The position numbers and the translations under genes are program-made. A stretch of 64,000 nt of DNA, taken from Thiomicrorhabdus sp. Kp2. Lineage in GTDB: Bacteria > Pseudomonadota > Gammaproteobacteria > Thiomicrospirales > Thiomicrospiraceae. The stretch is from assembly GCF_000478585.1 (NCBI RefSeq), contig NZ_ARWI01000001.1, positions 2,170,001-2,234,000 of the forward strand, written 5' to 3'. Shown one piece after another: positions 348 through 63,477 of the stretch. The notes under the pieces were generated by a model that was given only the letters and a program-made list of their open reading frames with translations, was not told the DNA's origin and searched no databases. How positions within the stretch are numbered: position 1 is the first letter of the stretch; the number at the start of each line of letters is the position of its first letter.

Positions 348-359
348 ACCAGGCCTGGT
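348..359. repeat. ACCAGGCCTGGT palindrome, copy 1 (intergenic, convergent)
   Basis: Perfect 12-bp palindrome in the 39-bp space between two convergent genes. Confidence 0.9.
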
Positions 360-383
360 AGGTTTATATTTGCTAAGTTTGCC

Positions 384-815
384 TCAGTTGCTTTGAAATT
401 CTAGAGTTGAAACCACTTCTTGAAACTTTTCTGTTCCCAGCACTTTTTTAAGATTAAAAGCGCACTCAACCGTTAATGTTAGACGTTTTCTATCGAGTTC
501 TGCAAGCTCTTTAACAATGCTTAACGCGCGGCTACGATCTTGGTTGTGTGTGTCTAGCAGTATCTCTTTAAGCTCCGTTTTAAGATTGTGGTATTCAGCA
601 TTAATAAAGTCGATTTTAGGGGTGCTTGAACGAGAAATTTCTCTTATTTGGTTGAGTTGCTGTTTGCTTAGTCCTAGTACGTCTAAATTCTCTATTACGA
701 TTGGCATTAAAGTCACTACTGGACTAGATGGCTTAAAGTCATCTGCCGCTTGTGAACTGAGTGTTAGGCTAAGTAGCAAGCTTGTAAATGCTGTTTTGAA
801 TAAGGGTTTTATCAT
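384..815 (-). CDS. small secreted protein, Spy/CpxP-like in outline
   Basis: 143 residues. It starts with a cleavable signal peptide (hydrophobic LLLSLTLS, then SSQAA cleavage region near residue 23), so the product is probably periplasmic. The mature part is mostly charged and helical, with a LGLSKQQLNQIREI stretch that recalls the LTxxQ helices of Spy/CpxP-type periplasmic chaperones and metal-resistance proteins. Only one cysteine is present (near residue 117), and no catalytic motif is seen. It is a single gene, tail to tail with the DUF3817 gene and downstream of the acetolactate synthase-like gene on the same strand (32-bp gap), so the two may be co-transcribed. The Spy/CpxP resemblance is weak, so treat it as a hypothetical periplasmic protein. 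Confidence 0.6.
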   Translation of the reverse strand: MIKPLFKTAFTSLLLSLTLSSQAADDFKPSSPVVTLMPIVIENLDVLGLSKQQLNQIREISRSSTPKIDFINAEYHNLKTELKEILLDTHNQDRSRALSIVKELAELDRKRLTLTVECAFNLKKVLGTEKFQEVVSTLEFQSN

Positions 816-847
816 TTTATCTCGGCTCTTTTTATAATAATGGTACG

Positions 848-2479
848 TTAAGTTGGGCAGATCATTTCACCGAGTTCTTCAGTGAGTTTAAGGTTTTCAG
901 AATAATCTACGGGGCAATCAATTAATACCACACAGTTGTCGGCTATGGCTTGTTTTAGGGTTGGCAGTAAGTCCTCGGTGTGCTCTATTTTATAGCCTTT
1001 TGCACCAAAGGCTTCGGCCAGTTTAATAAAGTCTGGATTGGTGAAGGCGATATTGCTTTCACGCCCAAACTGATTCATCTGTTTCCATTTTATTAACCCA
1101 TATTCTTGGTCATTCCAAATCAGCACAATAATGGGAATATTCAAACGTACTGCGGTTTCAATTTCTTGCACATTCATTAAAAAACCCGCATCGCCAGTTA
1201 CCGCCACACAGACCTGTTGTGGTTTGGCGAGTTTTGCGGCAATCGCCCCTGGTAATGCAATGCCCATTGAGGCAAAGCCATTGGAGATAATGCAACTATT
1301 AGGTGCTTGCGCTTGATACATTCGGGCAATCCACATTTTATGTGCGCCAACGTCAGAAATGACGATGTCTTCAGCTTGCAGTACTTTGCGTAAATCGGTC
1401 AAGATTTTTTGTGGTTTAACGGGGAAATCTTGGTTGTTATCGAGCTTGTGAAAGGTCTCTTCGATACGTTGTTTTAGGCCTTGATAGGGTGAACCAGTGT
1501 GGCGTTTGCTAATGGCGGCCACACTGGATAAAGCTTGCCCAATATCACCAATTAAACCTGCCGATACAATGTAAAATTCATCCACTTCTGCTGGTTGAGT
1601 GTCAATGTGAATGATTTTGGTTTCTGGATTTCGGTTCCAAAGGTGGGGGTGATATTCGACGATATCGTAACCTACGCAGACCACCACATCGGCTCGGTCA
1701 ATGCCACACGAGATATAGTCGTGCGCCTGTAAACCAATGGTTCCTAATGAGAGTTCATTACTGCATGGCAGAACACCTTTGGCCATAAAGGTCGTTGCCA
1801 CGGGGATATTGAGTTTTGTGGCAAATTCAAACAGCGCTTCACTCGCCTTTGAACGCACGACACCATTACCCGCAATAATAATAGGAAACTTGGCTTCAGA
1901 GATAATATCTGCGGCTTGCTGAACTTTGATTGGGTTTACGTAAGAGGGCAGCGGGCTCTGTTTTTTTAATGGAACTTTATCAAGCAATTTTTCGGCAATA
2001 TTTTCTGGAAAATCAATAAAGCTACAGCCTGGTTTTTCTACTTGAGCGACTTTAAAGGCTTTGCGAACGACTTCTGGAATAACCTCAGGGGTGAGGATTT
2101 GGGTGCTGTATTTGGTAATGGGTTTAAATAAATTGACTAAATCTAAAACCTGATGACTCTCTTTGTGCAGACGATTGGTACTCGCTTGCCCCGCTATGGC
2201 TACCACGGGCGCTCTGTCCATATTAGCATCGGCCACACCTGTGACCAAGTTTGTCGCGCCTGGGCCTAATGTCGCTAAACAGACACCTGCATGACCCGTT
2301 AAACGCCCATAAACATCCGCCATAAAAGCCGCACCTTGTTCATGGCGTGTCAAAATAAATTTAATATTGCTGTCGAGAAGGGCATCCATTAAATCCAGGT
2401 TTTCTTCACCTGGAATACCAAAGATATACTCCACCTCTTCATTTTCTAAACATTTAATAAACAGTTCAGCCGCTTTCAT
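848..2479 (-). CDS. acetolactate synthase-like thiamine diphosphate enzyme
   Basis: 543 residues from the chosen ATG, which follows CAGGT at good spacing and begins MKAAELFIKC as relatives do; an upstream in-frame start would add 12 residues. The domain order is typical of the ThDP decarboxylase family: an N-terminal pyrimidine domain with the FGIPGEENLDL glutamate and RHEQGAAFMAD, a central domain, and a C-terminal ThDP domain with GDAGFLMNVQEIETAV and WNDQEYGLIKWKQ. The last two motifs are those of AlsS-type acetolactate synthases, which join two pyruvates to acetolactate. No small regulatory subunit (ilvN/ilvH) lies beside it, which fits a catabolic or stand-alone enzyme rather than the branched-chain pathway enzyme. 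Substrate is inferred. Confidence 0.8.
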   Translation of the reverse strand: MKAAELFIKCLENEEVEYIFGIPGEENLDLMDALLDSNIKFILTRHEQGAAFMADVYGRLTGHAGVCLATLGPGATNLVTGVADANMDRAPVVAIAGQASTNRLHKESHQVLDLVNLFKPITKYSTQILTPEVIPEVVRKAFKVAQVEKPGCSFIDFPENIAEKLLDKVPLKKQSPLPSYVNPIKVQQAADIISEAKFPIIIAGNGVVRSKASEALFEFATKLNIPVATTFMAKGVLPCSNELSLGTIGLQAHDYISCGIDRADVVVCVGYDIVEYHPHLWNRNPETKIIHIDTQPAEVDEFYIVSAGLIGDIGQALSSVAAISKRHTGSPYQGLKQRIEETFHKLDNNQDFPVKPQKILTDLRKVLQAEDIVISDVGAHKMWIARMYQAQAPNSCIISNGFASMGIALPGAIAAKLAKPQQVCVAVTGDAGFLMNVQEIETAVRLNIPIIVLIWNDQEYGLIKWKQMNQFGRESNIAFTNPDFIKLAEAFGAKGYKIEHTEDLLPTLKQAIADNCVVLIDCPVDYSENLKLTEELGEMICPT

Positions 2480-2682
2480 TGTTTTTACCTGCTTTAGTCT
2501 TTTGCTGCTTTTCAAATTAATAGAAAGTAGATGCCCGAAAAACTTTCAATAGATTGCCGTTTTATAGTGTCACATCGGGCTGTTTTTAGAAAATAAAATC
2601 CTTTTAGAGTAGCCCAATTAAATAGGTATGATGATTGGGGTTTGATACAATTCATCGATTAATATCAACTTTGGAATCGGTT

Positions 2683-4215
2683 TTGAAAAGAATCATTAAA
2701 GCGACCGCAACTGTGGGCGGCATGACGATGATTTCTCGCATTTTAGGCTTTGTGCGTGATGTGATTATTGCCCGCTACTTTGGTGCCAGTATGGGGGCTG
2801 ATGCCTTTTTTGTGGCTTTTAAAATCCCCAACTTTTTTCGTCGTTTATTTGCAGAAGGGGCGTTTTCTCAAGCGTTTGTTCCTGTTTTAGCGGAGGCCAA
2901 AGAGAAGCGTGGTCAAGAGGCTGTTAAACATTTAGTCAATGCCATTAGTTTTAGACTTGGCGGAATCTTATTGTTATTAACCGCATTCGGTGTGTTTGGT
3001 TCTTCTTTATGGATGATGGTGTTTGCACCAGGTTTTATAGATAATCCAGAAAAGTTTAATCTTGCCGCTGATATGTTGGCGATTACTTTTCCTTATCTGT
3101 TGTTAATCTCTTTGGTGGCGTTTTCGTCAGCCATTATGAATACCTATAACCAATTTGCAGTACCCGCTTTTACACCCGTGTTTTTAAATTTGGTGTTGAT
3201 TACTTTTGCCGTTTGGGTTGCACCTTTAATGGATGTGCCAGTCATGGCATTGGCTTGGGGCGTATTGGTTGCGGGCGTGGTTCAACTTTTATTTCACCTG
3301 CCATTTCTCTATAAATTAGGTTTGCTACCACACCCCACCACAAAATCGGATGAAGGTGTCGGTGAGGTCAAGCGCTTAATGTTGCCTGCTTTATTTGGGG
3401 TTTCCGTGGCACAAATCAACTTATTGGTCGATACCATTTTGGCTTCGTTTTTGGTTACAGGCTCGGTCTCATGGCTCTATTATTCCGACCGTTTAATGGA
3501 GTTTCCGTTAGGCGTGTTTGGTGTCGCTTTAGCTACCGTGGTTTTACCAGGCCTGTCAAAAAAAGCCGCCAATGAAAACTGGCAAGGTTTTCAACAAGAC
3601 ATTGATAGTGCATTACGATTGGTGTTAATTATTGGTTTGCCAGCGACCTTAGGTTTATTAATTTTGGCAGAGCCACTCATCACTACGCTCTTTTTCTATG
3701 GTGCATTTACGGCACATGATGCCACTATGTCGAGCATGAGTTTAATGGCTTACTCTTTTGGTTTATTAGGCTTTATTTTGGTGAAGATTTTAGCGCCCGC
3801 TTTTTATTCACGCAAAGACATGAAAACCCCTGTTAAAGTGGCCGTGATCGCTTTGGTGACCAATATTATTTTAAATTTAATATTAATTGGCCCGTTTGCA
3901 CATGTGGGGTTAGCCGCTGCCACGACTATTTCAGCCTTTGTAAACTCAGGTTTACTGTACTGGTATTTAACCAAACAAGCTGTGTTTAAACCACTCAGTG
4001 GTTGGCCAAAATTGTTTATGCAAACCCTCTTTGCAAACAGTGTATTAATTGCCTTTTTATTATTTGCTTCACCTTCAATAGAGAGCTGGCATGCTTTTGA
4101 TGTTTGGTTAAGAATGGCTTGGTTATTCGGTTTGGTAATAGGGTCGATTGTTATTTACGGGTTGGTTCTGGTTTTAGTAGGGCTTAACCCAAAAAGATTG
4201 GTCAGTAAAAGTTAA
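2683..4215 (+). CDS. murJ: lipid II flippase MurJ
   Basis: Integral membrane protein that moves the peptidoglycan precursor lipid II across the inner membrane. The sequence has the family N-terminus (TVGGMTMISRILGFVRDVIIA and then DAFFVAFKIPNFFRRLFAEG) and about 14 hydrophobic segments. The TTG at 2683 gives 510 residues, close to the 511 of the E. coli protein, and starts just before the conserved block; a TTG at 2635 would add 16 residues with no family similarity. It heads the usual murJ-ribF-ileS-lspA order. A partial palindrome (CCAGGCCTG) lies inside the gene near 3549, encoding Pro-Gly-Leu. Confidence 0.9.
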   Translation: MKRIIKATATVGGMTMISRILGFVRDVIIARYFGASMGADAFFVAFKIPNFFRRLFAEGAFSQAFVPVLAEAKEKRGQEAVKHLVNAISFRLGGILLLLTAFGVFGSSLWMMVFAPGFIDNPEKFNLAADMLAITFPYLLLISLVAFSSAIMNTYNQFAVPAFTPVFLNLVLITFAVWVAPLMDVPVMALAWGVLVAGVVQLLFHLPFLYKLGLLPHPTTKSDEGVGEVKRLMLPALFGVSVAQINLLVDTILASFLVTGSVSWLYYSDRLMEFPLGVFGVALATVVLPGLSKKAANENWQGFQQDIDSALRLVLIIGLPATLGLLILAEPLITTLFFYGAFTAHDATMSSMSLMAYSFGLLGFILVKILAPAFYSRKDMKTPVKVAVIALVTNIILNLILIGPFAHVGLAAATTISAFVNSGLLYWYLTKQAVFKPLSGWPKLFMQTLFANSVLIAFLLFASPSIESWHAFDVWLRMAWLFGLVIGSIVIYGLVLVLVGLNPKRLVSKS

Positions 4216-4227
4216 AAATTGTAATCT

Positions 4228-4239
4228 ACCAGGCCTGGT
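4228..4239. repeat. ACCAGGCCTGGT palindrome, copy 2 (murJ-ribF gap)
   Basis: Perfect 12-bp palindrome 12 bp after the murJ stop. The rest of the 164-bp gap is AT-rich and carries a TATAAT at 4328-4333, about 47 bp before the ribF start, a possible -10 box without a clear -35 partner. Confidence 0.9.
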
Positions 4240-4379
4240 CAACTTATTAACCAATTAAAAGCATTGAATAGGCTAAAAATAAGTGAATTTTCAGTATATT
4301 TACAAAAAGTTAGCGCCACCAATAGGCTATAATTTACGGTTTGCTTTTAGCTAATAAAAATCGAACTAGATAGGGAAAC

Positions 4380-8973: not shown

Positions 8974-9012
8974 AAAACGACCAACGTCTTACCAGGCCTG
9001 GTCGTTTTTTTT
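8974..9012 (+). terminator. lspA terminator enclosing the 12-bp palindrome
   Basis: A 9-bp perfect stem (AAAACGACC at 8974-8982 pairs with GGTCGTTTT at 9000-9008) followed by a T-run. The 17-nt loop ends in the left part of the ACCAGGCCTGGT palindrome, and the palindrome's last GGT forms part of the terminator stem. Confidence 0.8.
8991..9002. repeat. ACCAGGCCTGGT palindrome, copy 3 (inside lspA terminator)
   Basis: Perfect copy overlapping the right arm of the terminator hairpin. Beyond it, 9013-9270 is AT-rich sequence with no gene seen and only a degenerate copy (TAGGCCTG near 9194). Confidence 0.9.
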
Positions 9013-11043: not shown

Positions 11044-11055
11044 ACCAGGCCTGGT
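11044..11055. repeat. ACCAGGCCTGGT palindrome, copy 4
   Basis: Perfect copy in the spacer between the cassettes and the BCCT gene; core extended to TACC...GGTA (14 bp). Confidence 0.9.
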
Positions 11056-11130: not shown

Positions 11131-11651
11131 TGGCTTCCCGTCACTTTTTCTCGTCTCTGCAGCCGAGTTCTTCGGTTGCTGTTCGGCAAAAAGTAACCAA
11201 AAAACGAACCCCGCTGACGAAACCGGTTTTACTAAGTTTGTCTGCTGAGATTCCCATAACTCGCTACGCAGGCTTCGCTCAAACAATGGAAATCTTTAAC
11301 CGCATCCTTCACTAAGTAAAAGAGCGATTCCTTACAGAGGGGAGGCTTTTTCTACGTTAATTCCGTATTTCTATTGTTTAGATTTTCTTGTGCTGTACTT
11401 TTTCACCAGGCCTGGTAAGTTCTGTTTTATTCTGTAAAGCCAACCTCAAACGCCAAAATTCCCCTTGGAATAGATTGTGCAAAGTTCTTAACGAAAAGAA
11501 CGATTAAAAATCCCGACTGTTCGAAGCTGAGCTTGCTCAGCAAGTTGCGGGATTTCAGTGAATGAGTTTTAGAACTTGCCAATATATGGAGCGGGGTGCC
11601 CTTTTTCTGGTTACTCTTTTTAGGCAAGTAAAAAGAGTAACGGGAAGCCTA
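11131..11651. repeat. inverted pair of GGCTTCCCGT repeats in a 1-kb gene-free spacer
   Basis: The left end reads GGCTTCCCGTCACTTTTT and the right end is the reverse complement of GGCTTCCCGTTACTCTTTTT. Each is followed inward by a matching AAAAAGTAACC / AAAGAGTAACC block and a CCCCGCT stretch, so the same element sits twice in opposite orientation. The spacer (10959-11987) holds no convincing gene; the short ORF over the left copy is repeat-derived. Confidence 0.65.
11405..11416. repeat. ACCAGGCCTGGT palindrome, copy 5
   Basis: Perfect copy lying between the two halves of the inverted GGCTTCCCGT repeat pair. Confidence 0.9.
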
Positions 11652-14243: not shown

Positions 14244-14261
14244 TTTACCAGGCCTGGTAAA
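14244..14261. repeat. ACCAGGCCTGGT palindrome, copy 6 (18-bp version)
   Basis: Perfect 18-bp palindrome TTTACCAGGCCTGGTAAA in the 275-bp gap between the BCCT gene and the PqiA-like gene; the rest of the gap shows no gene. Confidence 0.9.
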
Positions 14262-16650: not shown

Positions 16651-18864
16651 ATGATGAAATTTTTTGCCACAGCCCCAGGCGGATTAAGTGAGTTGCTAAG
16701 AGAAGAGTTAATGTCTTTTGGAGCAACCGAAGTAAAAGCTCAACCGCGTGGTGTGACTTTTGAGGGCGATTTAGAAGTCGCTTACCGAAGTTGTTTGTGG
16801 TCACGTTTAGCGAACCGTATTTTTGTTACGGTGTTAGAAGTTGAGCTAGAAACTCAAGAAGAGTTGACCGAGCAAGTTGCCACGGTGGATTGGCAAACTC
16901 ACATGGATGAATTTGGTTCTTTTGCGGTGTCGTTTTCGGGTAAAGGCATGGGGATTGACCACAGCCATTACGGTGCGTTAAAAATCAAGGATGGAATTGT
17001 CGATTACTTTAGAGGCATTACCAATAACCGCCCAAAAGTAAATACTGAAGACCCTGAGTTAAGAGTTCATGGTCATCTTAATCGCAATCAACTCACTTTA
17101 AGCATTGATTTAGTGGGCTATAGCTTACATCAACGTGGTTACCGTGAAGGTCAGCAAGTTAAAGCGCCACTTAAAGAGAACGTGGCGGCAGCGTTATTAA
17201 TGCGTGCAGGTTGGCCAGAAATTGCCAAACAGGGCGGTTGTTTGTATGACCCAATGTGTGGTTCGGGTACGTTTTTGGTAGAAGGTGCCATGATGGCATC
17301 TGACCTAGCACCAGGCCTGGCAAAAGTGAATAGAATGTTATTAAATTCTTGGAAATTACATGATGCTAAATTGTGGAATAGCTTAATTGAAGAAGCTAAA
17401 GAACGTGAAGCTGAAGGGTTACGTAATTTGCCAGATATTTACGGTTCCGATGCCTCGCATAAGTCATTAGATATTGCTGAAGAGGCCATTCATAATGCGG
17501 GTTATTTAGACGCAATTGAAATTAAGCAAATGACCGTAGAGCAAGGTCGTCGTTGGGGCGATTGGCAACCAGGCCTGGTGATTTGTAACCCGCCATATGG
17601 TGAGCGTTTAGGTGAAATTGAAGAAGTTAAGGTGATCTATAACGACTTAGGTAAATACCTTAAAAATGAGTTTGATGGTTGGCAGGGGGCGGTACTAACT
17701 TGTAACCCAGAACTAGGTATGTATTTGGGTATTAAGGCTAAACGTAGTCATAACTTCTTTAACGGACCAATGGAATGTAAGTTATTCCGTTTTGATATTA
17801 CCGAAGAGTTTCATCGTGAACCATCATTGAAAGGTGGCGCTAATATTGTTCAAGAAGTGAGCACTGTGATGCCAGAGCTTGCCGAATCGCAAGGTGCGGT
17901 GATGGTGGCTAACCGTATTAAAAAGAATTTAAAACAGCTAAAAAAATGGGCTAAAACCAACGAAATAAACGCTTACCGAGTTTATGATGCCGATTTACCA
18001 GAATATGCTATCTCAATTGATTTATACCAAACGGAAGATGCGGGAGAATGGTTAATTGTAAATGAGTATGCCGCACCCAAAACGGTAGATAAAGCCAAGG
18101 CCAAAAAACGTTTGCATGAAGCCTTAGCGGCATTGCCGAATGTCTTTCCAACCGTACCAGTTGACCAAATTGTTTTTAAAGTGCGTAGCCGTCAATCGGG
18201 AACATCGCAATATGAAAAGTTGGACGATAGTCGTGACTTTTACACCGTAATAGAAAACGGTGCCAAAATTCGTGTGAACTTTACCGACTATTTAGACACA
18301 GGCCTGTTTTTAGACCATCGTGATGTACGTGCTTTAGTGGCACAAAAATCGGTTAGAAAATCACTGCTAAATCTTTTCTGTTACACCGCAACGGCAACCA
18401 TTGAAGCTGCTGTTATGGGTGCAAAAAGCAGTTTGAGTGTGGATATGTCTAAAACCTATTTGTATTGGGCAGAACACAACTTAGCGCACAATATGTCACA
18501 CAATAAAGACTCTGCTGAGCACAAGTTTTTGCAAGCCGATGTTTTAGATTGGTTGTCAAAAGAGAGTGAGAATCCAAGTGCTACATTTGATGTTATTTTC
18601 TTAGATCCCCCTTCCTTTTCAACTTCAAAACGTATGGATGGCACTTTAGATATTCAGCGAGATCATGTGGCTCTAATTGAACAAGCCATGAAACTACTTA
18701 ACCCTGGTGGCACCTTAATTTTCTCAAACAATATGCGTAAATTTAAGTTAGATACGGATGCATTGGCTAATTTGAGTATTGAGAATATTACTCAAAAAAC
18801 CATGCCAAGAGACTTCCAGCGTAACAGCAAAATTCACCAGGCCTGGTTAATTAGCAAAGGGTAA
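16651..18864 (+). CDS. rlmL: fused 23S rRNA methyltransferase RlmKL
   Basis: 737 residues with two methyltransferases in one chain. The N-terminal half (THUMP domain, then the NPPYGERLGEIEE motif) makes m2G2445; the C-terminal half (VNFTDYLDTGLFLDHRDVR, then LDPPSFSTSKRMDG) makes m7G2069 in 23S rRNA. The fusion is the gammaproteobacterial form. The gene contains two perfect copies of the 12-bp palindrome and two partial copies, the highest density in any gene here. It is transcribed divergently from the lytic transglycosylase gene. ATG at 16651 or 16654. Confidence 0.95.
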   Translation: MMKFFATAPGGLSELLREELMSFGATEVKAQPRGVTFEGDLEVAYRSCLWSRLANRIFVTVLEVELETQEELTEQVATVDWQTHMDEFGSFAVSFSGKGMGIDHSHYGALKIKDGIVDYFRGITNNRPKVNTEDPELRVHGHLNRNQLTLSIDLVGYSLHQRGYREGQQVKAPLKENVAAALLMRAGWPEIAKQGGCLYDPMCGSGTFLVEGAMMASDLAPGLAKVNRMLLNSWKLHDAKLWNSLIEEAKEREAEGLRNLPDIYGSDASHKSLDIAEEAIHNAGYLDAIEIKQMTVEQGRRWGDWQPGLVICNPPYGERLGEIEEVKVIYNDLGKYLKNEFDGWQGAVLTCNPELGMYLGIKAKRSHNFFNGPMECKLFRFDITEEFHREPSLKGGANIVQEVSTVMPELAESQGAVMVANRIKKNLKQLKKWAKTNEINAYRVYDADLPEYAISIDLYQTEDAGEWLIVNEYAAPKTVDKAKAKKRLHEALAALPNVFPTVPVDQIVFKVRSRQSGTSQYEKLDDSRDFYTVIENGAKIRVNFTDYLDTGLFLDHRDVRALVAQKSVRKSLLNLFCYTATATIEAAVMGAKSSLSVDMSKTYLYWAEHNLAHNMSHNKDSAEHKFLQADVLDWLSKESENPSATFDVIFLDPPSFSTSKRMDGTLDIQRDHVALIEQAMKLLNPGGTLIFSNNMRKFKLDTDALANLSIENITQKTMPRDFQRNSKIHQAWLISKG
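17568..17579. repeat. ACCAGGCCTGGT palindrome, copy 7 (inside rlmKL)
   Basis: Perfect copy in coding sequence, read as Gln-Pro-Gly-Leu-Val. A 10-bp version (CCAGGCCTGG) lies at 17311-17320 in the same gene. Confidence 0.9.
18836..18847. repeat. ACCAGGCCTGGT palindrome, copy 8 (inside rlmKL, near the stop)
   Basis: Perfect copy in a second reading frame, read as His-Gln-Ala-Trp-Leu, so it is not the protein motif that forces the sequence. Confidence 0.9.
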
Positions 18865-22028: not shown

Positions 22029-22227
22029 AACCACGAAGACACGACGGCACGAAGTTTTTCAAGGTTACCAGGCCTGGTGATTAGTCATTTAAACTATCAA
22101 TTTTGTATTTAAATAGCCAACCATTAAAATCATTACTCTTAATAGAGTCAACTTATATTAGCTGCATAACATTCTACTCACTATGAAAGGCTTTCAAACC
22201 TTCGTGTCTTAGTGCCTTCGTGGTTAG
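22029..22227. repeat. CACGAAG inverted repeat pair around the palindrome (hemN-elyC gap)
   Basis: Left arm AACCACGAAGACACGACGGCAC... and right arm ...GTGCCTTCGTGGTTA, about 26-28 bp each and inverted, enclose a copy of the 12-bp palindrome at 22067-22078. Both flanking genes converge here. The same arrangement recurs upstream of prmA. Confidence 0.8.
22067..22078. repeat. ACCAGGCCTGGT palindrome, copy 9 (convergent gap)
   Basis: Perfect copy between the arms of the CACGAAG inverted repeat, 63 bp after hemN. Confidence 0.9.
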
Positions 22228-31701: not shown

Positions 31702-32241
31702 TTAATCGCCAGTAGTCATTTTATTTTCTAGCTTTTTAAGTAAGGGGATTAACTCTTTATTTATCTGTTGTTGAGTGAGAGGCCCTGTAAATTTATGGCG
31801 AATAATGCCTTGTTGATCGATTACAAAGGTTTCAGGTACCCCATATACGCCCCAGTCGATGCCTGCCTGTCCATTGGTGTCTTGAACCACAAAAGTGTAT
31901 GGGTTACCTAAGGCTCTTAGCCAAGCTTTGGCTTCATTAGGTGTGTCTTTATAGTTAAGGCCTACAATGGTTGTAGGGTGTTTATTTGCAAAGGCCATTA
32001 AATTTTGATGCTCTTGTTTACAAGAGACACACCAAGAAGCCCAAATATTCAAGATCCAAGGTTGCCCTGCTAGCTGTTTAGCGGTAAGGCTTTGATGAGA
32101 AAAAAGCCTGGGTAAATCAAACTGCGCCGCAGGCTTGCCAATTAATGGCGAGGGAACACTCTTGGGGTCTAAGGTTAAACCAATCGCCAAAATAACTACC
32201 AGGCCTGCAAACAATGAGAGGGGAATCATCTGTTTTTTCAT
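31702..32241 (-). CDS. ccmG: cytochrome c maturation thioredoxin CcmG (DsbE)
   Basis: 179 residues. An N-terminal signal anchor precedes a periplasmic thioredoxin-like domain with active site WASWCVSCKQEH and the family's acidic GNPYTFVVQDTNGQAG stretch. It reduces CcmH and apocytochrome disulfides, fed by DsbD, whose gene lies at 46-48 kb. Its ATG overlaps the ccmF stop (ATGA). A partial palindrome is encoded at Ala-Gly-Leu-Val in the anchor. Confidence 0.95.
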   Translation of the reverse strand: MKKQMIPLSLFAGLVVILAIGLTLDPKSVPSPLIGKPAAQFDLPRLFSHQSLTAKQLAGQPWILNIWASWCVSCKQEHQNLMAFANKHPTTIVGLNYKDTPNEAKAWLRALGNPYTFVVQDTNGQAGIDWGVYGVPETFVIDQQGIIRHKFTGPLTQQQINKELIPLLKKLENKMTTGD

Positions 32242-34163
32242 TGGACGAACTCTTTATTGAGGGCATTACGTCTTTTCAATAACGTCATGATGCCTCCCAA
32301 TGCCATCAAAATAGCCCCTAACCAAATCCAGCGAATAAAGGGTTTATATTGAATGCGAATACTCCAGGCCTGGTCATCCAACTTCTCACCCAAGGCGACA
32401 AACAAGTCACGTGACAATTGGGCATCAATTCCAGCCTCTGTCATGGGCATGGCTTGGCTCATATAGGTACGTTTTTGTGGATGCAGTTCGGTTAAAAATT
32501 GATTATTTTCATAGACTTTAATGAGCCCTTCAGAGGCTAAATAGTTTTGGATTTGTTTTTGTTGGACACCTTTAAATTCAAAACGATATTGGTTGATTTG
32601 GTAACTTTGTCCAGGTTCGAGTCTTACATCTTTTTCAATAGAATAAATGGAGGTGATGGTAATTCCTGTTAAAGTCACAGCAAAACCGATGTGTGCCATA
32701 ACAGAACCGATTGTTTGAAAACTCGGTTTTACCAGGCCTGGTGAATTTGCTTTTAACAGGTAATGTAATGCGCTAAAAGCAATCCAGCTACTCATTAATA
32801 ATCCAATAACGGCTAATCCATTAAAATCGGGAAGCAGTAATAACGGCACTAAAAAAGCTACCAGTAAACTGCTGATTGCGGGAAGCCATAATCGTTGTAG
32901 TAAGCGTTTTGAACTGTCTTCACGCCAAAAGCTCGCAAAACCTAACCCCATAAAAATGGCTAAGGGGATAGTGAGGGGCAGCATGACCGAATTAAAATAA
33001 GGTGCGCCAACCGACAGTTTAGCAATTCCTAAGGCATCTAAAATAAGCGGGTACAGCGTACCAAGTAGAACCGTTGCCATCATGGCCATAAGAATGACGT
33101 TATTAAGCAACAGCAGAGTGTCTTTAGAGAGTAATTTAAACGCTTTAGTTTGAGTAACTTTATGAGCATGGCTCGCATATAACGAGAGTGATGCGCCGAC
33201 CACAATCACCAAGAAGATTAATATAAATACGCCACGCGAAGGGTCAGTAGTGAAAGCATGTACCGATGTGAGTACCCCAGAGCGTACTAAAAACGTACCT
33301 AATAGACTCAACGAAAAAGCCAAAATGGCCAACAGTAATGTCCAAGATTGAAATGTACCACGTGTGGCGGTAATGCTTAAAGAGTGAATCAGTGCCGTGG
33401 CTACAATCCAGGGGAGTAATGAAGCGTTTTCAACAGGATCCCAAAACCACCAGCCACCCCAGCCAAGTTCGTAATAGGCCCACCAGCTTCCTAAGGCGAT
33501 ACCGATGGTTAAGAATGCCCAAGCGATAATGGTCCAACTTTTAGCCCAACGCGCCCAGGTGAGTTCAAATTTGCCTTCAAGTAATACCGCCACCGCAAAG
33601 GCAAATGCAACGGCCATACCCACATAGCCCATATAGAGAACAGGAGGGTGAATGGCTAAACCGATATCTTGCAATAAAGGGTTTAAACTACGCCCTTCGT
33701 TTGGAATTTCAATTAAGCGTTCAAATGGATTAGAGGTCAAAAGTATAAAGAAAATAAATCCAATGGCCACCATGCCTAACACACTGAGCATTTTGCTATT
33801 GAGTGAGTCTGGCAGTGAGCGATTAAATAAACTAACGGCAAAGGTCCAGCCACTGAGTATGAGCGCCCATAATAATAAAGAGCCTTCATGCGCACCCCAA
33901 GTGGCCGAGATTTTAAAAATCAGTGGCAATTGCGTGTTTGAGTTGCTCGCAACATACTTGATGGAGAAGTCATCAACAATGAATCCATACAATAAACAAG
34001 CAAAAGAGATGGCTAAAAACAGAAACTGGCCAAGGGTAGCAGGCCTGGTAAGTTGCATTAAAGCCGAGTGTTTTTGGTAGCTTCCATAGAGAGGTGCAAC
34101 GGCTAAAACAAATGAGAAGGCAAGGGCAAGAATAAGAGAAAAAAGGCCAATTTCAGGAATCAT
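32238..34163 (-). CDS. ccmF: haem lyase subunit CcmF
   Basis: 641 residues, about 15 membrane segments. It forms the holocytochrome c synthase with CcmH and CcmI, moving haem from CcmE to apocytochromes. The WWD motif WGGWWFWDPVENASLLPW (residues about 235-252) and conserved histidines in AIHPP and TWGAHEGS are present. Start and stop overlap ccmE and ccmG by ATGA, indicating coupled translation. The gene holds one perfect palindrome and two partial ones (near 32363 and 34041). Confidence 0.96.
   Translation of the reverse strand: MIPEIGLFSLILALAFSFVLAVAPLYGSYQKHSALMQLTRPATLGQFLFLAISFACLLYGFIVDDFSIKYVASNSNTQLPLIFKISATWGAHEGSLLLWALILSGWTFAVSLFNRSLPDSLNSKMLSVLGMVAIGFIFFILLTSNPFERLIEIPNEGRSLNPLLQDIGLAIHPPVLYMGYVGMAVAFAFAVAVLLEGKFELTWARWAKSWTIIAWAFLTIGIALGSWWAYYELGWGGWWFWDPVENASLLPWIVATALIHSLSITATRGTFQSWTLLLAILAFSLSLLGTFLVRSGVLTSVHAFTTDPSRGVFILIFLVIVVGASLSLYASHAHKVTQTKAFKLLSKDTLLLLNNVILMAMMATVLLGTLYPLILDALGIAKLSVGAPYFNSVMLPLTIPLAIFMGLGFASFWREDSSKRLLQRLWLPAISSLLVAFLVPLLLLPDFNGLAVIGLLMSSWIAFSALHYLLKANSPGLVKPSFQTIGSVMAHIGFAVTLTGITITSIYSIEKDVRLEPGQSYQINQYRFEFKGVQQKQIQNYLASEGLIKVYENNQFLTELHPQKRTYMSQAMPMTEAGIDAQLSRDLFVALGEKLDDQAWSIRIQYKPFIRWIWLGAILMALGGIMTLLKRRNALNKEFVQ
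32731..32742. repeat. ACCAGGCCTGGT palindrome, copy 10 (inside ccmF)
   Basis: Perfect copy in coding sequence, read on the minus strand as Ser-Pro-Gly-Leu-Val. Confidence 0.9.
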
Positions 34164-37706: not shown

Positions 37707-38993
37707 TTATTTCTCTCTAGAAACCGCTCTATGTCCGATGTCGGTACGATAATAGGCTTCATCCCAGTTAATCATAGCCACGCCTTCATAGGCACGTTTT
37801 TGAGCAGCGGTAACGTTCTCTCCTAAAGCGGTAACACACAATACACGTCCACCAGATGTGGTGACTTCATTGTTTTCATTAACGGCAGTACCAGCATGAA
37901 AAACTTTTAAGTCCGAAGCGTTGGCCTTTTCAATGCCCGTAATCACATCGTTTTTACGATATTCATCAGGGTAACCACCCGCAGCCATCACAACACCTAA
38001 AGCCGCACGACTATCCCATTGAGCGGTAACGGTATCTAACTTGCCATCAATCGCCGCTAAACAAAGTGTATGTAAATCAGATTTTAAACGCATCATAATC
38101 GGTTGAGTTTCAGGGTCACCAAAACGACAGTTAAACTCTAACACCTTTGGAGCGCCTGAAGCGTCAATCATCACGCCAGCGTATAGAAAGCCCGTATAAG
38201 GTAAGCCATCTTTAGCCATGCCTTCAATCGTTGGGTAAATGACCTCTTCCATAATACGATTGTGAATGCTACGAGTAACAACTGGAGCAGGGGTGTAAGC
38301 GCCCATACCGCCAGTATTAGGTCCAGTATCACCGTTATTACGGGCTTTATGGTCTTGAGAGGTCGCCATAGGTAAAACATGTTTACCGTCAGCCATTACA
38401 ATAAAGCTTGCCTCTTCACCGACTAAAAATTCTTCAATAACAACTCGAGAACCCGCATCACCAAATTTATTGCCTGCAAGCATATCCGAAACCGCTTCTT
38501 TAGCTTCTTCTACTGTCTCTGCCAGAATAACGCCTTTACCAGCCGCTAAACCATCGGCTTTAATGACAATCGGTGCACCAACTTTATCTAGATAAGCGTG
38601 AGCAGGTTCAATTTCAGTAAATACATCATAAGCCGCAGTTGGAATATTGTGTTTGGCTAGGAAGTCTTTAGAAAATGCTTTAGACCCTTCTAATTGAGCT
38701 GCGCCAGCAGTAGGGCCAAAACATTTTAGACCTGCTTCTTTAAAAGCATCAACCACCCCTAATACTAAAGGCACTTCTGGGCCAACAATGGCTAAATCGA
38801 TATTGTTTTCTTGTGCAAAACTTACCAGGCCTGGTAAGTCTTCAACCGCAATATCTACATTGGTTAAATTTGGCTCTAAAGCTGTTCCTGCATTGCCTGG
38901 AGCAACAAATACTTGAGTTACCTCAGCTGCTTGGGCTGTTTTCCAAGCCAAGGCATGTTCACGGCCGCCGCCACCAATAATCAATACTTTCAT
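37707..38993 (-). CDS. purD: phosphoribosylamine-glycine ligase
   Basis: 428 residues, cytoplasmic ATP-grasp enzyme, second step of purine synthesis (phosphoribosylamine plus glycine to GAR). It has the N-terminal VLIIGGGGREHALAWK, the ATP-grasp stretch VIKADGLAAGKGVILA, EEFLVGEEASF and the metal-binding LEFNCRFGDPE. It lies downstream of purH on the same strand, as in other gammaproteobacteria, but a 388-bp repeat-filled gap separates them. A 20-bp version of the palindrome is coded near residue 55. Confidence 0.97.
   Translation of the reverse strand: MKVLIIGGGGREHALAWKTAQAAEVTQVFVAPGNAGTALEPNLTNVDIAVEDLPGLVSFAQENNIDLAIVGPEVPLVLGVVDAFKEAGLKCFGPTAGAAQLEGSKAFSKDFLAKHNIPTAAYDVFTEIEPAHAYLDKVGAPIVIKADGLAAGKGVILAETVEEAKEAVSDMLAGNKFGDAGSRVVIEEFLVGEEASFIVMADGKHVLPMATSQDHKARNNGDTGPNTGGMGAYTPAPVVTRSIHNRIMEEVIYPTIEGMAKDGLPYTGFLYAGVMIDASGAPKVLEFNCRFGDPETQPIMMRLKSDLHTLCLAAIDGKLDTVTAQWDSRAALGVVMAAGGYPDEYRKNDVITGIEKANASDLKVFHAGTAVNENNEVTTSGGRVLCVTALGENVTAAQKRAYEGVAMINWDEAYYRTDIGHRAVSREK
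38820..38839. repeat. ACCAGGCCTGGT palindrome, copy 11 (20-bp version inside purD)
   Basis: Perfect 20-bp palindrome ACTTACCAGGCCTGGTAAGT in coding sequence, read on the minus strand as Asp-Leu-Pro-Gly-Leu-Val-Ser. Confidence 0.92.
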
Positions 38994-42286: not shown

Positions 42287-42317
42287 GAAAAAATGTCTTT
42301 TGTTTGTTCTCAATGGG

Positions 42318-42337
42318 AGTTACCAGGCCTGGTAACT
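42318..42337. repeat. ACCAGGCCTGGT palindrome, copy 12 (20-bp version, dusB-prmA gap)
   Basis: Perfect 20-bp palindrome AGTTACCAGGCCTGGTAACT, 31 bp upstream of the dusB start and 15 bp beyond the prmA stop. Confidence 0.92.
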
Positions 42338-42352
42338 TTTAAATTTAGTCAA

Positions 42353-43231
42353 TTAAACCTGTTTTTTTCCAGACAAAAGACCCCATTCTTCTTTTGTTTC
42401 AAAAGTGTCTAGGGTGATTCCAATTGATTGATAGTGTTGGATTAATTCATCAGCTTGGGTCGCTAAAAGTCCAGACAAAGTTAAGGTTCCACCTGGTTTT
42501 AATAGGCGGTCAAACTCTGAAGAGAGTTCTTTTAATGGTCCAGCCAAAATATTAGCCACAATCACATCCGCAGGTTCGGCATTAAAATCTTTTACCAAAG
42601 CAAAAGGGATAGTTTCGTTATTACGTTTGGCATTTTCAATGCTGGCGGTAATCGCTTGTGGGTCAATATCGGTTCCTGAAACGGTTTTTGCCCCAAGTTT
42701 TTGGGCGGCTAAAGCTAAAATACCTGAACCACAACCATAATCTATCACGCTTAAATCTTTTGGAGCGTTGTGGTCTAACCAGGTCAAACATAAAGAAGTA
42801 GTAGGGTGAGTTCCCGTACCAAAGGCCATGCCAGGGTCTAAATAGAGGTTAACGGCGTCGGGTTGTGGAGCTTCTGTCCAGCTAGGCACTATCCAAAGGT
42901 TTTTACCAAACAGCATTGGTTTGAATTGATCCATCCAAGCTCTAATCCAATCCTTATCTTCAAGTTGCTCAACTTTAAATTGAGTCGTTTTCAGTTCAGG
43001 AACCATTTGCACCAGCATCTCAATAATGGCTTTGCTATCGACATCGGCATCAAATAAACCAATGACTTTGGTATTGCCCCAAATGGGGGTCGTGCCGATT
43101 TCGGGTTCATAAATGGGTTGGTCTTTGGCGTCTTCAAAGGTAACTGAAGCGGCGTTGGCTTCCATAAAAGCGTCTGATAAAGGTTCAGCAATTGCTTCTT
43201 GCACAACGGTATTAATTTGAATCCAAGCCAT
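42353..43231 (-). CDS. prmA: ribosomal protein L11 methyltransferase
   Basis: 292 residues from the ATG at MAWIQINTV, preceded by AGGATTTT; the open frame extends 48 codons upstream through repeat DNA without family similarity. It trimethylates L11 on several residues. An N-terminal substrate domain is followed by a SAM-binding fold with IDYGCGSGILALAAQKLGA and the NPPY-equivalent VANILAGPL. It precedes dusB and follows accC. Confidence 0.95.
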   Translation of the reverse strand: MAWIQINTVVQEAIAEPLSDAFMEANAASVTFEDAKDQPIYEPEIGTTPIWGNTKVIGLFDADVDSKAIIEMLVQMVPELKTTQFKVEQLEDKDWIRAWMDQFKPMLFGKNLWIVPSWTEAPQPDAVNLYLDPGMAFGTGTHPTTSLCLTWLDHNAPKDLSVIDYGCGSGILALAAQKLGAKTVSGTDIDPQAITASIENAKRNNETIPFALVKDFNAEPADVIVANILAGPLKELSSEFDRLLKPGGTLTLSGLLATQADELIQHYQSIGITLDTFETKEEWGLLSGKKQV

Positions 43232-43273
43232 AAAAAATCCTAAAGTTTGGTTTTTTGAAAATAAAAAAGTAAA

Positions 43274-43410
43274 AACCACGAAGACACGAAGGCACGAAGT
43301 TAAAAGATAGAACCTTTTAATATTAATAACAAAAATTATGAGTTTACCAGGCCTGGTAAAAACGTATATTTGCAATTAATTTTCTTCGTGCCTTCGTGTC
43401 TTCGTGGTTA
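43274..43410. repeat. CACGAAG inverted repeat pair around the palindrome (accC-prmA gap)
   Basis: Left arm AACCACGAAGACACGAAG... (43274-43299) and right arm ...GTGTCTTCGTGGTTA (43384-43410), almost exact inverted copies, enclose the palindrome at 43346-43357. Same layout as after hemN. Confidence 0.85.
43343..43360. repeat. ACCAGGCCTGGT palindrome, copy 13 (18-bp version)
   Basis: Perfect 18-bp palindrome TTTACCAGGCCTGGTAAA midway between the CACGAAG arms. Confidence 0.92.
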
Positions 43411-50924: not shown

Positions 50925-51028
50925 AAAATCACTTCCAAATTAGTAAGGTCACTTTTTGCAATGGTATGCATAAAAGCCCCAAAATACAATACGGAAAGAT
51001 GAAATATTTATCTCTTAATGAAAAAGCA

Positions 51029-51040
51029 ACCAGGCCTGGT
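51029..51040. repeat. ACCAGGCCTGGT palindrome, copy 14
   Basis: Perfect copy in the first duplicated unit. Confidence 0.92.
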
Positions 51041-51212
51041 AATAACGGTCATTGGCTCGCCTAAATTTTGAGCGAAGGAAAACTATTTTTAAAAAAGAGG
51101 TAACCACGAAGGCACGAAGACACGAAGTTGAAAGGGTTAGTTAAAAATTAAATGTACTCTGATTTTAATAAAGTAATAAAGGGCTCTGACCCCTTAATCA
51201 AATGAAAAAGCA

Positions 51213-51224
51213 ACCAGGCCTGGT
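51213..51224. repeat. ACCAGGCCTGGT palindrome, copy 15
   Basis: Perfect copy in the second duplicated unit; it shares origin with copy 14 and should not count as independent. Confidence 0.92.
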
Positions 51225-51393
51225 AATAACGGTCATTGGCTCGCCTAATTTTGAGCGAAGGAAAACTATTTTTAAAAAAGAGGTAACCACGAAGGCACGA
51301 AGACACGAAGTTGAAAGGGTTAGTTAAAAATTAAATGTACTCTGATTTTAATAAAGTAATAAAGGGCTCTGACCCCTTAATCGCTTTAGGAAA

Positions 51394-54474: not shown

Positions 54475-54497
54475 AATTTTAAGCCTGATTAATTTTT

Positions 54498-54509
54498 ACC
54501 AGGCCTGGT
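54498..54509. repeat. ACCAGGCCTGGT palindrome, copy 16
   Basis: Perfect copy between the DUF302 stop and its terminator, so it lies within the transcribed 3' end. Confidence 0.92.
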
Positions 54510-60015: not shown

Positions 60016-60017
60016 CG

Positions 60018-63000
60018 ATGGCTGAGAATCCAGTACCAGAACAGGCTAAGCCAGAGGCCGAATTGAATATTGCAGGTAAACTTGCTAAGGCTTTTATTCA
60101 TTCAAAAATTACCATGATGATGGTGATTGCAGTTACCCTTGCTGGGATTATGGCTTATTTGATTACCCCACGAGAATATAATCCGCAAATTGTGGTACCT
60201 GCGGCCAATATTATTGTGCCAAAAGCGGGAGCAACACCTGAAGAAGTCAACAATATGGTGGTTAAGCCATTAGAGACTATTTTGAGTGCTTTGCCAGGGG
60301 TTGATCACACCTTTGGTTATGCGTCTAATGATTTTGGTGTGGTCACCGTTCAGTTTGAGGTGGGTGAGAATCAGGTGGATAGTTTGGTTAAGGTTTATAA
60401 CCAGATTATGCAAAATATGGATAAGATGCCGCCTGATACACAACAGCCATTAATCAAACCAATCAATGTGGACGATGTACCCATTATGACCTTGGCGGTA
60501 ACGTCTAAAGAGTTATCTGGTTATGATTTGCGTGATATCTCTCTTAAATTGGTTGAAAACCTTCGCAACATTCCTGGGGTTTCATTTTCTGATGTGATTG
60601 GCGGTAAGCAGCGTGCGATTAATGTTTGGTTAGACGCACAAAAGATTGCATTAACTGGCCTCTCTTTAGAGCAAATAAGTGAAATGCTGCAAGGCAGTAA
60701 CGTTTCTCTACCCGTTGGTTCAGTGGTGAATAATAACCGCGACCGCATGATTCGTGTAAATGGTTATTTAGGGAATGCTCAGCAGGTGGGCGAAATTGTT
60801 ATTGGTGCGGATAATGGTCGTCCAATTTATTTAAAAGATATTGCTACGATCAATGATGGGCCTCAAGAGTCACAAAGCTATACTCGTTTAGGTTTTGGCC
60901 CAAGTTCAACGCTGAATGTTAATGGTGAGCAACAGGCGGTAACCATTACCTTAGCTAAAAAACCTGGAACCAATGCGGTAGATGTGGCGAATGCGGTGCT
61001 GAATCAATTGGCTGAGCTTAAAAAGTCTGTAATCCCCGCTAATGTTGATGTGGTTGTGACTCGTAATGATGGCGAGAAGGCCAATGCCGCGGTTAACTTA
61101 CTGATGGAGCATTTGCTTATTGCCGTTGGTTCGGTAGTGATTATTTTGGTGCTGTTTTTGGGTTGGCGAGAAGCGGGGATTGTTACCTTGACTGTGCCAT
61201 TAATTCTGTTTGTGGTGTTGTTTATTGGCATGATTGCTGAGCAAACCATTAACCGAATTACCTTGTTTGCACTCATTTTATCGTTGGGGCTTTTGGTGGA
61301 TGCCGCCATTGTGGTCATAGAAAATATTCACAGGCATATACATGATGGATTTGATCCAGAGAATTTTGATGAAGTTTTAATCAAAGCCACCAATGAAATT
61401 GGTAACCCAACCAATGTAGCTACAATTGCGGTTATTTTGGCTTTTATTCCCATGCTGTTTGTAACAGGTATGATGGGGCCCTTTATGGCGCCGATTCCAT
61501 TTAATGTGCCTGTGGCGATGATTGCTTCTCTAGTGGTGGCTTACATTCTTGTGCCTTATGCTGCTTATAGATTGCTTGGTAAAAAGGCAATTAAAGAGAT
61601 GCAGACGCGTGAGAGTCTAGAAACTCACCATGTTCAAAAAGAAGATTGGATGCAGAAGATTTACGTTAAGGCCATCAATCCAATGATTGAAAGCCGTACT
61701 AAACGTAATGTGTTTTTATTTGTGGTTTTACTGTCGTTAATTGCAGCGATGATTCAGCCAGCACTGCAATTTATCCGTGATGATGGTATGAATAACCCTC
61801 TTCATCCTGCAGGTGTAGAAGTAAAAATGTTGCCTTATGACAATACCAGTACCTTTTTGGTTCAAGTTGATATGCCAGAAGGCACAGCACTTGAAGCAAC
61901 CGACCGTGTGGTAAGTCATGTGGGTGAGCGTTTATCTAAAACTCAGTATGTGACAGACTATAGTGTGTATTTGGGGAATCATGCGCCTATTGATTTTGCC
62001 GCTTTGGTGCGTGGTGATTTAATTAAAGAGGGTGCTAACTTTGCTCAAATTAGAGTGAATCTAGTGAATAAACATCATCGTAATGTTTCATCGCATGAGA
62101 TTGTTGAACAATTTAATCTAGATTTAAATTCGTTACGCAAAACATTTCCTACGGCAAATATTAAGCTTTATGAAACACCTCCTGGGCCACCTGTAACCAC
62201 TCAAATTATGGCTGAATTATATGGCCCAGATTATGAGAAGTTGCGCGAAGCTTCTATTGAAGTTGGTAAGGCATTTAATCAGGTCTATGGTTTGATTAAT
62301 ATCGATGATTCGGTTACTGCAGATAACCTAAGTTACCAAATTAATATTGACCGTGAACAAGCCAATCTGTTGGGTGTTGCGCCTGCTCAGGTAGGTAAAA
62401 TGTTACGTGACTATATTAATGGTTTTGAGCTTGGTTACATGCACCTTGATAATGTGCGTGAACCCGTCGATATTATTGTTCGTTTGCCACGTTCAGAAAG
62501 AACAGTGGCTGAACAGATGATGTCGTTACAAGTCCAGTCACGTTCTGGAGCATCCGTTCCATTGTCTGCGGTCGCTAAAATAGAAGAGGTGTTATACGCC
62601 AAACCTGTTTTAGGTCGTGATCAGCATCAGATGGTAATGATTGGTGGTGAACTACTTCAATCAAGCCCCGTTTATGCGGTATTGTCTCTTGATAAAATGT
62701 TGGATGGTGTTAGGTTGCCTGAATCTGGTGTAACTTTCCATACAGCCAACTTAGGGTTTGTTCAGGCTCAACCTGATGATGTGATGAACTACACCATTTT
62801 ATGGGGTGGGGAGATGCGTTTAACTTTAGATGTATTCCGTGATATGGGAAGTGCATTTATTGTGGCATTGATCTTCATTTACCTCATTTTAGTTGGTTAT
62901 TATAAGTCGTTTATGATGCCTGTGATTGTAATGGGAGCTATTCCATTAACCATGATTGGGGTATTCCCAGGTCACTGGTTAACCGATCAAGCATTTACCG

Positions 63001-63353
63001 CGACATCCATGATAGGGGTCATCGCTTTAGCAGGGATAGTGGTTCGAAACTCATTACTATTGATTGACTTTATTCTGGAATATCGAGCCGAAGGCAAGTC
63101 TCTTAAAGATTCTGTTATTGAAGCAGGTAAGGTGCGTTTCCGTCCAATTCTGTTAACCGCTTTAGCGATTATGTTCGGTTCTATGATTATGATTACTGAT
63201 CCAGTATTTGGTGGGTTAGCAGTTTCATTAATCTTTGGTACGCTTTCATCAACCGTGTTAACGCTGTTGGTTATTCCATTGCTTTATTATATTTGGCAGT
63301 GGCATGGAGGCGTTAAACAGCAAGAAGCGTTGGAAAGAAAAGTGAATGCTTAA
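60018..63353 (+). CDS. RND-family efflux transporter permease
   Basis: 1111 residues, longer than AcrB. Twelve membrane segments in two halves with large periplasmic loops. The proton-relay segment reads SLGLLVDAAIVVIENIHRHI, with a single conserved Asp; the second half has AGIVVRNSLLLIDFI. The first loop (PREYNPQIVVPAANIIVPKAG, ATPEEVNNMV) and porter regions follow the HAE1-like pattern, but N-terminal NPQI and an extended loop mark a divergent group. A heavy-metal role is not indicated: the methionine triad of CusA is not seen. Substrate unknown. Confidence 0.9.
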   Translation: MAENPVPEQAKPEAELNIAGKLAKAFIHSKITMMMVIAVTLAGIMAYLITPREYNPQIVVPAANIIVPKAGATPEEVNNMVVKPLETILSALPGVDHTFGYASNDFGVVTVQFEVGENQVDSLVKVYNQIMQNMDKMPPDTQQPLIKPINVDDVPIMTLAVTSKELSGYDLRDISLKLVENLRNIPGVSFSDVIGGKQRAINVWLDAQKIALTGLSLEQISEMLQGSNVSLPVGSVVNNNRDRMIRVNGYLGNAQQVGEIVIGADNGRPIYLKDIATINDGPQESQSYTRLGFGPSSTLNVNGEQQAVTITLAKKPGTNAVDVANAVLNQLAELKKSVIPANVDVVVTRNDGEKANAAVNLLMEHLLIAVGSVVIILVLFLGWREAGIVTLTVPLILFVVLFIGMIAEQTINRITLFALILSLGLLVDAAIVVIENIHRHIHDGFDPENFDEVLIKATNEIGNPTNVATIAVILAFIPMLFVTGMMGPFMAPIPFNVPVAMIASLVVAYILVPYAAYRLLGKKAIKEMQTRESLETHHVQKEDWMQKIYVKAINPMIESRTKRNVFLFVVLLSLIAAMIQPALQFIRDDGMNNPLHPAGVEVKMLPYDNTSTFLVQVDMPEGTALEATDRVVSHVGERLSKTQYVTDYSVYLGNHAPIDFAALVRGDLIKEGANFAQIRVNLVNKHHRNVSSHEIVEQFNLDLNSLRKTFPTANIKLYETPPGPPVTTQIMAELYGPDYEKLREASIEVGKAFNQVYGLINIDDSVTADNLSYQINIDREQANLLGVAPAQVGKMLRDYINGFELGYMHLDNVREPVDIIVRLPRSERTVAEQMMSLQVQSRSGASVPLSAVAKIEEVLYAKPVLGRDQHQMVMIGGELLQSSPVYAVLSLDKMLDGVRLPESGVTFHTANLGFVQAQPDDVMNYTILWGGEMRLTLDVFRDMGSAFIVALIFIYLILVGYYKSFMMPVIVMGAIPLTMIGVFPGHWLTDQAFTATSMIGVIALAGIVVRNSLLLIDFILEYRAEGKSLKDSVIEAGKVRFRPILLTALAIMFGSMIMITDPVFGGLAVSLIFGTLSSTVLTLLVIPLLYYIWQWHGGVKQQEALERKVNA

Positions 63354-63465
63354 CAGCGATAAACTAACGTATAGCTAAGCAATTCTTTACTGTTAAACGT
63401 AAAATTAAGGCCGGGTTACATCATGTTTCCTGGTTTTTTTTATGTTTGAACGATATTAAGAAGTT

Positions 63466-63477
63466 ACCAGGCCTGGT
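63466..63477. repeat. ACCAGGCCTGGT palindrome, copy 17
   Basis: Perfect copy, 16 bp as TTACC...GGTAA, between the RND gene and the HbpS-like gene. No separate terminator is clear in this gap. Confidence 0.92.

Follow-up and report, generated by a model that had tools for sequence, protein, structure and literature searches.

An iterated 12-bp palindrome in Thiomicrorhabdus and its relatives as a probable dialect of DNA uptake signal

The palindrome in the window and across the genome

The window analysed here is a 64,000-nucleotide stretch of the genome of Thiomicrorhabdus sp. Kp2 (contig NZ_ARWI01000001.1, positions 2,170,001 to 2,234,000), which includes murJ, rlmKL, hemN and open reading frames (ORFs) for a CcmF/NrfE-type heme lyase and an RND-transporter-like protein. 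The RlmKL it encodes matches that of Thiomicrorhabdus sp. Milos-T2 most closely, at 89% identity over the best segment, followed by Thiomicrospira, Hydrogenovibrio and other Thiomicrorhabdus records. Between and within these genes lie 17 exact copies of ACCAGGCCTGGT, a 12-bp palindrome that is its own reverse complement (Table 1), compared with none in 100 dinucleotide shuffles of the window.

An original prediction, made from the letters of the window, had listed the same 17 copies, and all of them are present where it placed them. The longer perfect palindromes of 18 and 20 bp that it described around four of the copies are real, and the two copies that it attributed to one duplication do lie within a single direct duplication (51017-51382), with a period of ~184 bp and units that are 98-100% identical. 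Its division into 13 intergenic and 4 genic copies held for the latter, as four lie within long ORFs (17568, 18836, 32731 and 38824), but only 11 fall between ORFs, with those at 14247 and 43346 touching doubtful ORF calls or ORF ends. Its estimate of about 25 further AGGCCT sites was slightly low: we counted 28, of which 24 continue as AGGCCTG on either strand and 21 on the plus strand. The window also contains a second iterated word, represented by 10 copies of GTCATTACGA and 9 of GTCATTGCGA (0.08 expected in each case).

Table 1 Copies of the palindrome ACCAGGCCTGGT in the window; positions cover the longer perfect palindrome where there is one
Copy	Position	Strand	Context	Remarks
1	348..359	.	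directly 3' of ORF 51-344	exact match
2	4228..4239	.	intergenic, directly 3' of murJ ORF 2635-4215	
3	8991..9002	.	intergenic	same place and identical in Thiomicrorhabdus sp. Milos-T2 (L009), the sole relative with an alignment spanning the copy
4	11044..11055	.	intergenic	
5	11405..11416	.	intergenic	
6 (14247)	14244..14261	.	overlaps doubtful 91-amino-acid ORF	part of perfect 18-bp palindrome
7	17568..17579	.	within rlmKL	
8	18836..18847	.	within rlmKL, 3' end	
9	22067..22078	.	intergenic, 3' of hemN	0 exact in 4 relatives with a spanning (gappy) alignment
10	32731..32742	.	within CcmF/NrfE-type heme lyase ORF 32238-34163	
11 (38824)	38820..38839	.	within ORF 37707-38993	part of perfect 20-bp palindrome; 12-mer exact at same place in 2 of 4 spanning relatives (L009, L012)
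12	42318..42337	.	intergenic	part of perfect 20-bp palindrome
13 (43346)	43343..43360	.	start of ORF 42353-43375, or upstream of that ORF	part of perfect 18-bp palindrome
14	51029..51040	.		unit 1 of direct duplication
15	51213..51224	.		unit 2 of same direct duplication
16	54498..54509	.	intergenic	
17	63466..63477	.	intergenic, 3' of RND-transporter-like ORF 60018-63353	

Across the whole genome that holds the window (G000; 2,725,706 bases in one contig), ACCAGGCCTGGT occurs 557 times and the reversed-pattern control not once. This far exceeds the ~0.3 copies that an order-2 Markov model, with 464 kb of G000 as its basis, predicts. Nor is the repeat a local feature: 20 stretches of 20 kb sampled in the rest of the genome each held at least one copy. 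A count near the Markov value and confinement to the window were the two results that the original prediction had named as refuting it, and neither was obtained. Spread, consensus and context were assessed in 464 kb of the 2.73 Mb. Density is ~200 copies per Mb, and counts per 20 kb ranged from 1 to 9 with a variance-to-mean ratio of 0.92, which is Poisson-like; gaps among the first 100 sites were slightly more even than random (coefficient of variation 0.79). The consensus is tight, with 96 perfect copies compared with 51 one-mismatch sites, and 50 of these 51 depart from the palindrome in the two outermost positions on one side (over both strands, 102 were counted, 2 of them inside). Sequence identity among copies ends at the palindrome and its weak flanks.

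The copies are concentrated between genes. In G000, 55 of 96 are intergenic, although only 14.8% of the sequence lies outside ORFs of at least 100 amino acids (p ~1e-21), and intergenic enrichment was 2.2 to 4.5 fold in nine of ten other sampled genomes, with G026 borderline (p 0.05). The remaining 41 copies within genes of G000 use all three frames and encode different peptides, and protein function therefore does not explain the repeat.

Relatives, dialects and a common half-site

To place the palindrome among relatives, we counted it in the 62 genomes of the family, a set that was unchanged when the search was extended to the order. At least one copy was found in 41 of the 62; 27 of these genomes hold 84-718 copies (motif-rich below) and the other 35 of the family hold 0-38. 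Outside the family, none of 365 gammaproteobacteria had more than 5 copies (369 were drawn from the class, of which 4 proved to be family members).

Some relatives carry a different motif. G027 has no ACCAGGCCTGGT but 1025 copies of ACCGGCCGGT (reversed control, 1), a word that occurs at most 15 times in each of the other 61 family genomes (reversed control up to 19). G029 and G031 have 15 copies each of this word, compared with 3 and 2 of the reversed controls, perhaps a trace of the G027 dialect. An asymmetric motif, AATCTNCCAGGYTGGG, is present in 284 copies in G007, 283 in G008 and 338 in G013, all of which lack ACCAGGCCTGGT; elsewhere it appears as single copies in three genomes only. A looser core, CAGGCCTG, is abundant in G024 and G053: it was counted 23 times in 60 kb of the former and 43 times in 100 kb of the latter, compared with 1.7 expected in each case. 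Searches for motifs in sampled stretches of low-copy genomes returned CRISPR-like arrays, longer repeats or nothing clear, and no clear motif emerged from 20-100 kb samples of G025, G030, G031, G042, G050 and G051 or from ~18-27 kb each of G014, G037 and G044. The first stretches of G007 and G008 (L037-L041) and of G051 (L048-L049) contain densely repeated words, probably CRISPR arrays. A palindrome-free clade (G044, G037, G038 and G045; L259, L260 and small loci) has repeated G tracts, such as GGGGGGGAGA with 7 copies in 45 kb pooled (0.03 expected).

These motif states were placed on a quick ComEC tree of 56 genomes, which is rooted at its midpoint and has some long branches. The five states, in which genomes with at least 80 copies were scored as rich and those with at least 10 as weak, required 9 changes, compared with a mean of 24.0 when states were shuffled. 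Genera g2, g4 and g5, with 0-3 copies, lie outside the rest.

Reading the sites outward from the dyad reveals a part that several dialects have in common. The half-sites are AA.TTACCAGG in G000 (96 sites), AATTTACCAGG in G049 (25), AAAATTAACCAGG in G061 (15) and AAA.TTTACCGG in G027 (61), with AAAATCTRCCAGG as the left half in the asymmetric dialect (15, 14 and 7 sites). A's at 10-11 bp from the dyad are common to these four genomes and to the left half of the asymmetric dialect; in G027 they are unmoved despite its shorter core, and G026 follows the pattern in part. In G000 and several relatives, the motif consists of two copies of one half-site, approximately AAnTT-ACCAGG, arranged head to head. 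As the right half of the asymmetric motif differs, that motif is one shared half-site with a changed second half. Dialects with a shared part are therefore present among the relatives, the shared part being this half-site, which is clear in some and weak or different in G006, G021, G053 and G056.

Turnover of sites and mobile DNA

Alignments with relatives point to an origin of the motif by substitution, not insertion. In alignments between motif-rich genomes, 52 of 97 directed comparisons were exact, 30 differed by substitution and 15 contained gaps, in flanks that were 68% identical; by comparison, only 52 of 1105 control 12-mers taken 30-90 bp from the motif were kept. Against genomes with 0-2 copies, none of 22 was kept (1 of 233 controls), with 19 substitutions and 3 short gaps, and a clean 12-bp empty site was found at none of these 22 positions. 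A further 12 motif-rich and 2 low-copy comparisons were dropped for poor flanks, and pairs may count in both directions. The genic copies at 17568, 18836 and 38824 align with relatives without gaps. The first, in rlmKL, is exact at the loci of four of ten relatives (L009, L010, L012 and L015), with substitutions and no gaps in the other six; the second, in the same gene, is exact in all five relatives with a spanning alignment, of ten compared. Sites in genes are thus gained and lost by point changes and, once present, retained in place for long periods. The intergenic case is less clear, as the alignments at 4228 and 22067 contain large gaps and are too gappy to judge insertion.

Acquired DNA can be sparse in the motif. 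The second contig of G021 (L174) is a conjugative plasmid with genes for a Rep3 initiator, an F-type TraN and an EcoRI-type methylase, and contains 2 copies in the 40 kb read compared with 11.5 expected (p 8e-4). The methylase, an adenine methylase, adjoins a GmrSD/HNH nuclease gene. Contigs of ~16 kb in G059 and G060 have no copies, compared with 3.3 and 1.6 expected, a depletion that is barely or not significant (p 0.04 for G059, or 0.19 with its doubled contig counted once, and 0.20 for G060). The G059 contig (L176; 16,016 bases) encodes Rep3 and TrfA-like initiators, and its ORFs recur every 8005 bases, so it is either a dimeric plasmid or was doubled during assembly. Motif density is roughly ordinary in the secondary contigs sampled from G032, G022, G009 (C4) and G060 (C2), which are presumably chromosome scaffolds.

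Candidate explanations and known systems

We think it probable that the palindrome is a local dialect of a DNA uptake signal, because its tight consensus, its dialects, its origin by substitution, its permissive positions, its conservation in place and its scarcity in acquired DNA match what the literature describes (PMC1626085, PMC3630211, PMC2397512) for the uptake signal sequences (USS) of Pasteurellaceae and the DNA uptake sequences (DUS) of Neisseriaceae, the two families in which such signals have been described (PMC1939737). The natural-transformation machinery would include a surface receptor for motif-bearing DNA, so that DNA of the same or related species would be preferred in uptake and then recombined into the chromosome. 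Such a bias could push near-matches towards the consensus wherever selection permits, that is, between genes and in tolerant codons, where the copies are indeed found. The receptor might read the head-to-head signal as a dimer, or might read either half. A shift in its specificity would then lead hundreds of sites to turn over and yield a new dialect, which may be how the dialects described above arose.

Genes of the transformation machinery give a mixed picture. ComEC is encoded by all motif-rich genomes but one (26 of 27), namely G035, an 82% complete draft. It is also encoded by 30 of the other 35 family genomes, and is therefore no predictor of the motif and necessary at best. Several other observations likewise weigh against an uptake signal. 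The ComP receptor model PF16732, which covers ComP only, matched none of the 62 genomes at cut-off, and the GspH/FimT pilin model PF12019 matched three (G040, G042 and G051), all with 0-2 copies. PilQ (TIGR02515) had no match at cut-off in the 62 genomes, its weak matches being mixed with other secretins and not settling the presence of type IV pili, and no secretin was matched in the motif-rich G048 (86% complete). Known uptake signals are described as non-palindromic (PMC1939737). In G053, none of 7 copies was intergenic. The shared half-site is weak in G021 and G053, and the outer flanks of G056 (ACCACCAGG) and G006 (T-rich outside) depart from it. The rate of conservation in place may be biased slightly upwards, as alignments might be accepted more readily where the motif is conserved. 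Among the literature matches listed, some represented by title and the start of the abstract, neither competence in these genera nor this motif is reported; those to motif strings hold a 10-mer only, the 12-mer being expected in none of the matching papers, and the available portions of PMC5217627 make no mention of Thiomicrospira or CAGGCCTG.

Two sets of genes were considered as receptor candidates and set aside. The PF12019 matches occur in low-copy genomes only, and the one whose surroundings were read (L167) lies in what looks like a type II secretion pseudopilin cluster. The pilin-like genes at L095 of G000 have an N-methylation motif only. Because no receptor was found, type IV pili are not firmly shown and ComEC alone does not predict the motif, we infer function from the pattern of the sites.

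Other processes could generate many near-identical palindromes. The original prediction had suggested the binding site of a chromosome-organising protein, and sites for such a protein or for a nucleoid-occlusion protein (of the Noc, SlmA or ParB sort), kept by selection, would suit the dyad symmetry, the outer contacts at roughly a helical turn from the dyad, as for a dimeric protein, and the presence of copies in every sampled stretch of chromosome. We nevertheless consider this unlikely and a poorer fit to the data: with Poisson-like counts and none of 20 stretches empty there is no large gap in the sample, the consensus is tighter than that described for regulatory binding sites, with which the consensus of uptake signals has been contrasted (PMC1626085), and both G027 and the asymmetric clade would require a concerted change at hundreds of sites. 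A methylation-linked origin, in which sites are made and kept by methylation-directed repair or another methyltransferase-linked bias, as for the highly iterated palindrome HIP1 of cyanobacteria, would account for a GGCC-core palindrome that is replaced by another palindrome in a relative, as Elhai describes for HIP1 (PMC4390886), and searches of G000 gave one match to C5 methyltransferases and two to PF01555. However, 18 of the 27 motif-rich genomes lack PF00145 (C5), and 11 of the 27, some being drafts, lack both this family and PF01555 (N4/N6; E up to 0.001), namely G006, G010, G012, G022, G026, G048, G049, G057, G058, G060 and G061; G027 and G007 also lack both. Nor does a HIP-type model (PMC4390886) readily accommodate the non-palindromic motif of three relatives. 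As regards these two families, the ones searched, we reject methyltransferases as the general cause, and the related suggestion of a protected modification site in the original prediction fares badly on the same grounds; a HIP1-like element overall seems quite unlikely. The C5 methyltransferase of G000 (L062:1276-2538) has an N-terminal MerR-type helix-turn-helix domain.

A small mobile or repetitive extragenic palindromic (REP)-like element spread by insertion would explain high copy number and near identity, and copies 14 and 15 did arise by duplication. Such an element, already disfavoured, is very improbable given that identity ends at the palindrome and its weak flanks, that none of the 22 motif positions aligned with genomes of 0-2 copies shows a clean 12-bp gap and that the genic copies at 17568, 18836 and 38824 align gap-free. 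Another sequence drive, for example by a repair or recombination enzyme of this specificity, would produce the same turnover and positional conservation, as any biased conversion would, but there is no candidate enzyme and we regard it as improbable. A Chi-like role requires orientation, which a palindrome does not have. That the copies are transcription terminators or RNA hairpins is likewise very doubtful. One of four copies folded (window 42312-42345) reaches -12.6 kcal/mol with a z of -2.8 relative to shuffles, and 10 of 49 scored intergenic copies of G000 lie between convergent genes, but the other three folded copies have z values of -1.6 to +0.3, 3 of the 49 lie between divergent genes and 41 of 96 copies are inside genes. 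Some copies may possibly be used as terminators, as reported for pairs of DUS and USS (PMC3630211, PMC5217627).

An uptake signal remains our preferred explanation. The original prediction, which made no mention of the nearest known kind of repeat, DNA uptake signals, is partly supported: its selfish repeat 'spread by conversion' comes near to the drive that uptake would impose, and the repeat does differ from HIP1 in sequence, as it stated. More tentatively, we raise the possibility that these genomes carry another family of signals of the USS/DUS type, one that evolved independently of those in Pasteurellaceae and Neisseriaceae and would be the first with dyad symmetry. Its receptor might read the half-site (AAnTT-ACCAGG and variants) as a dimer, and lineages might have switched between symmetric and one-sided forms, rewriting hundreds of sites each time. 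If so, the symmetric, shortened and one-sided dialects found among free-living sulfur oxidisers would reveal how uptake signals originate and change; relatives that differ in dialect would form natural pairs for finding the receptor; and transformation could open these chemolithoautotrophs to genetics. If the palindrome is not an uptake signal, some other process, as yet unexplained, rewrites hundreds of sites per genome.

Among known systems of dispersed sites, those of Noc and SlmA are palindromic and spread over the chromosome, as here, but they are far fewer and leave a gap at the terminus; in stretches sampled here without reference to the terminus, no gap was seen (copies in 20 of 20). 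HIP1 and the alternate HIPs are, like this motif, iterated palindromes with replacement variants, but they are paired with matching methyltransferases and generally reach 1000-2000 copies per Mb (PMC4390886), compared with ~200 for the 12-mer; here, by contrast, neither methyltransferase family searched is present in 11 of 27 motif-rich genomes, and one dialect is non-palindromic.

The uptake signals are closer. Unlike the motif here, DUS are non-palindromic, and the model of their receptor, ComP, finds nothing above cut-off in the 62 genomes. Like it, they comprise several dialects with a constant core that follow phylogeny (PMC3630211), and they are retained where the core genome is permissive and are missing from newly acquired genes (PMC2397512). 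USS differ in that their sequence is unrelated, in that the motif here is a perfect palindrome in motif-rich species and in that no receptor was found for it, although the USS receptor is itself only predicted (PMC12616744). In common with the motif of Thiomicrorhabdus and its relatives, USS have many copies, a very tight consensus, AT-rich flanks and two subclade dialects, and they arise by substitution rather than insertion (PMC1626085).

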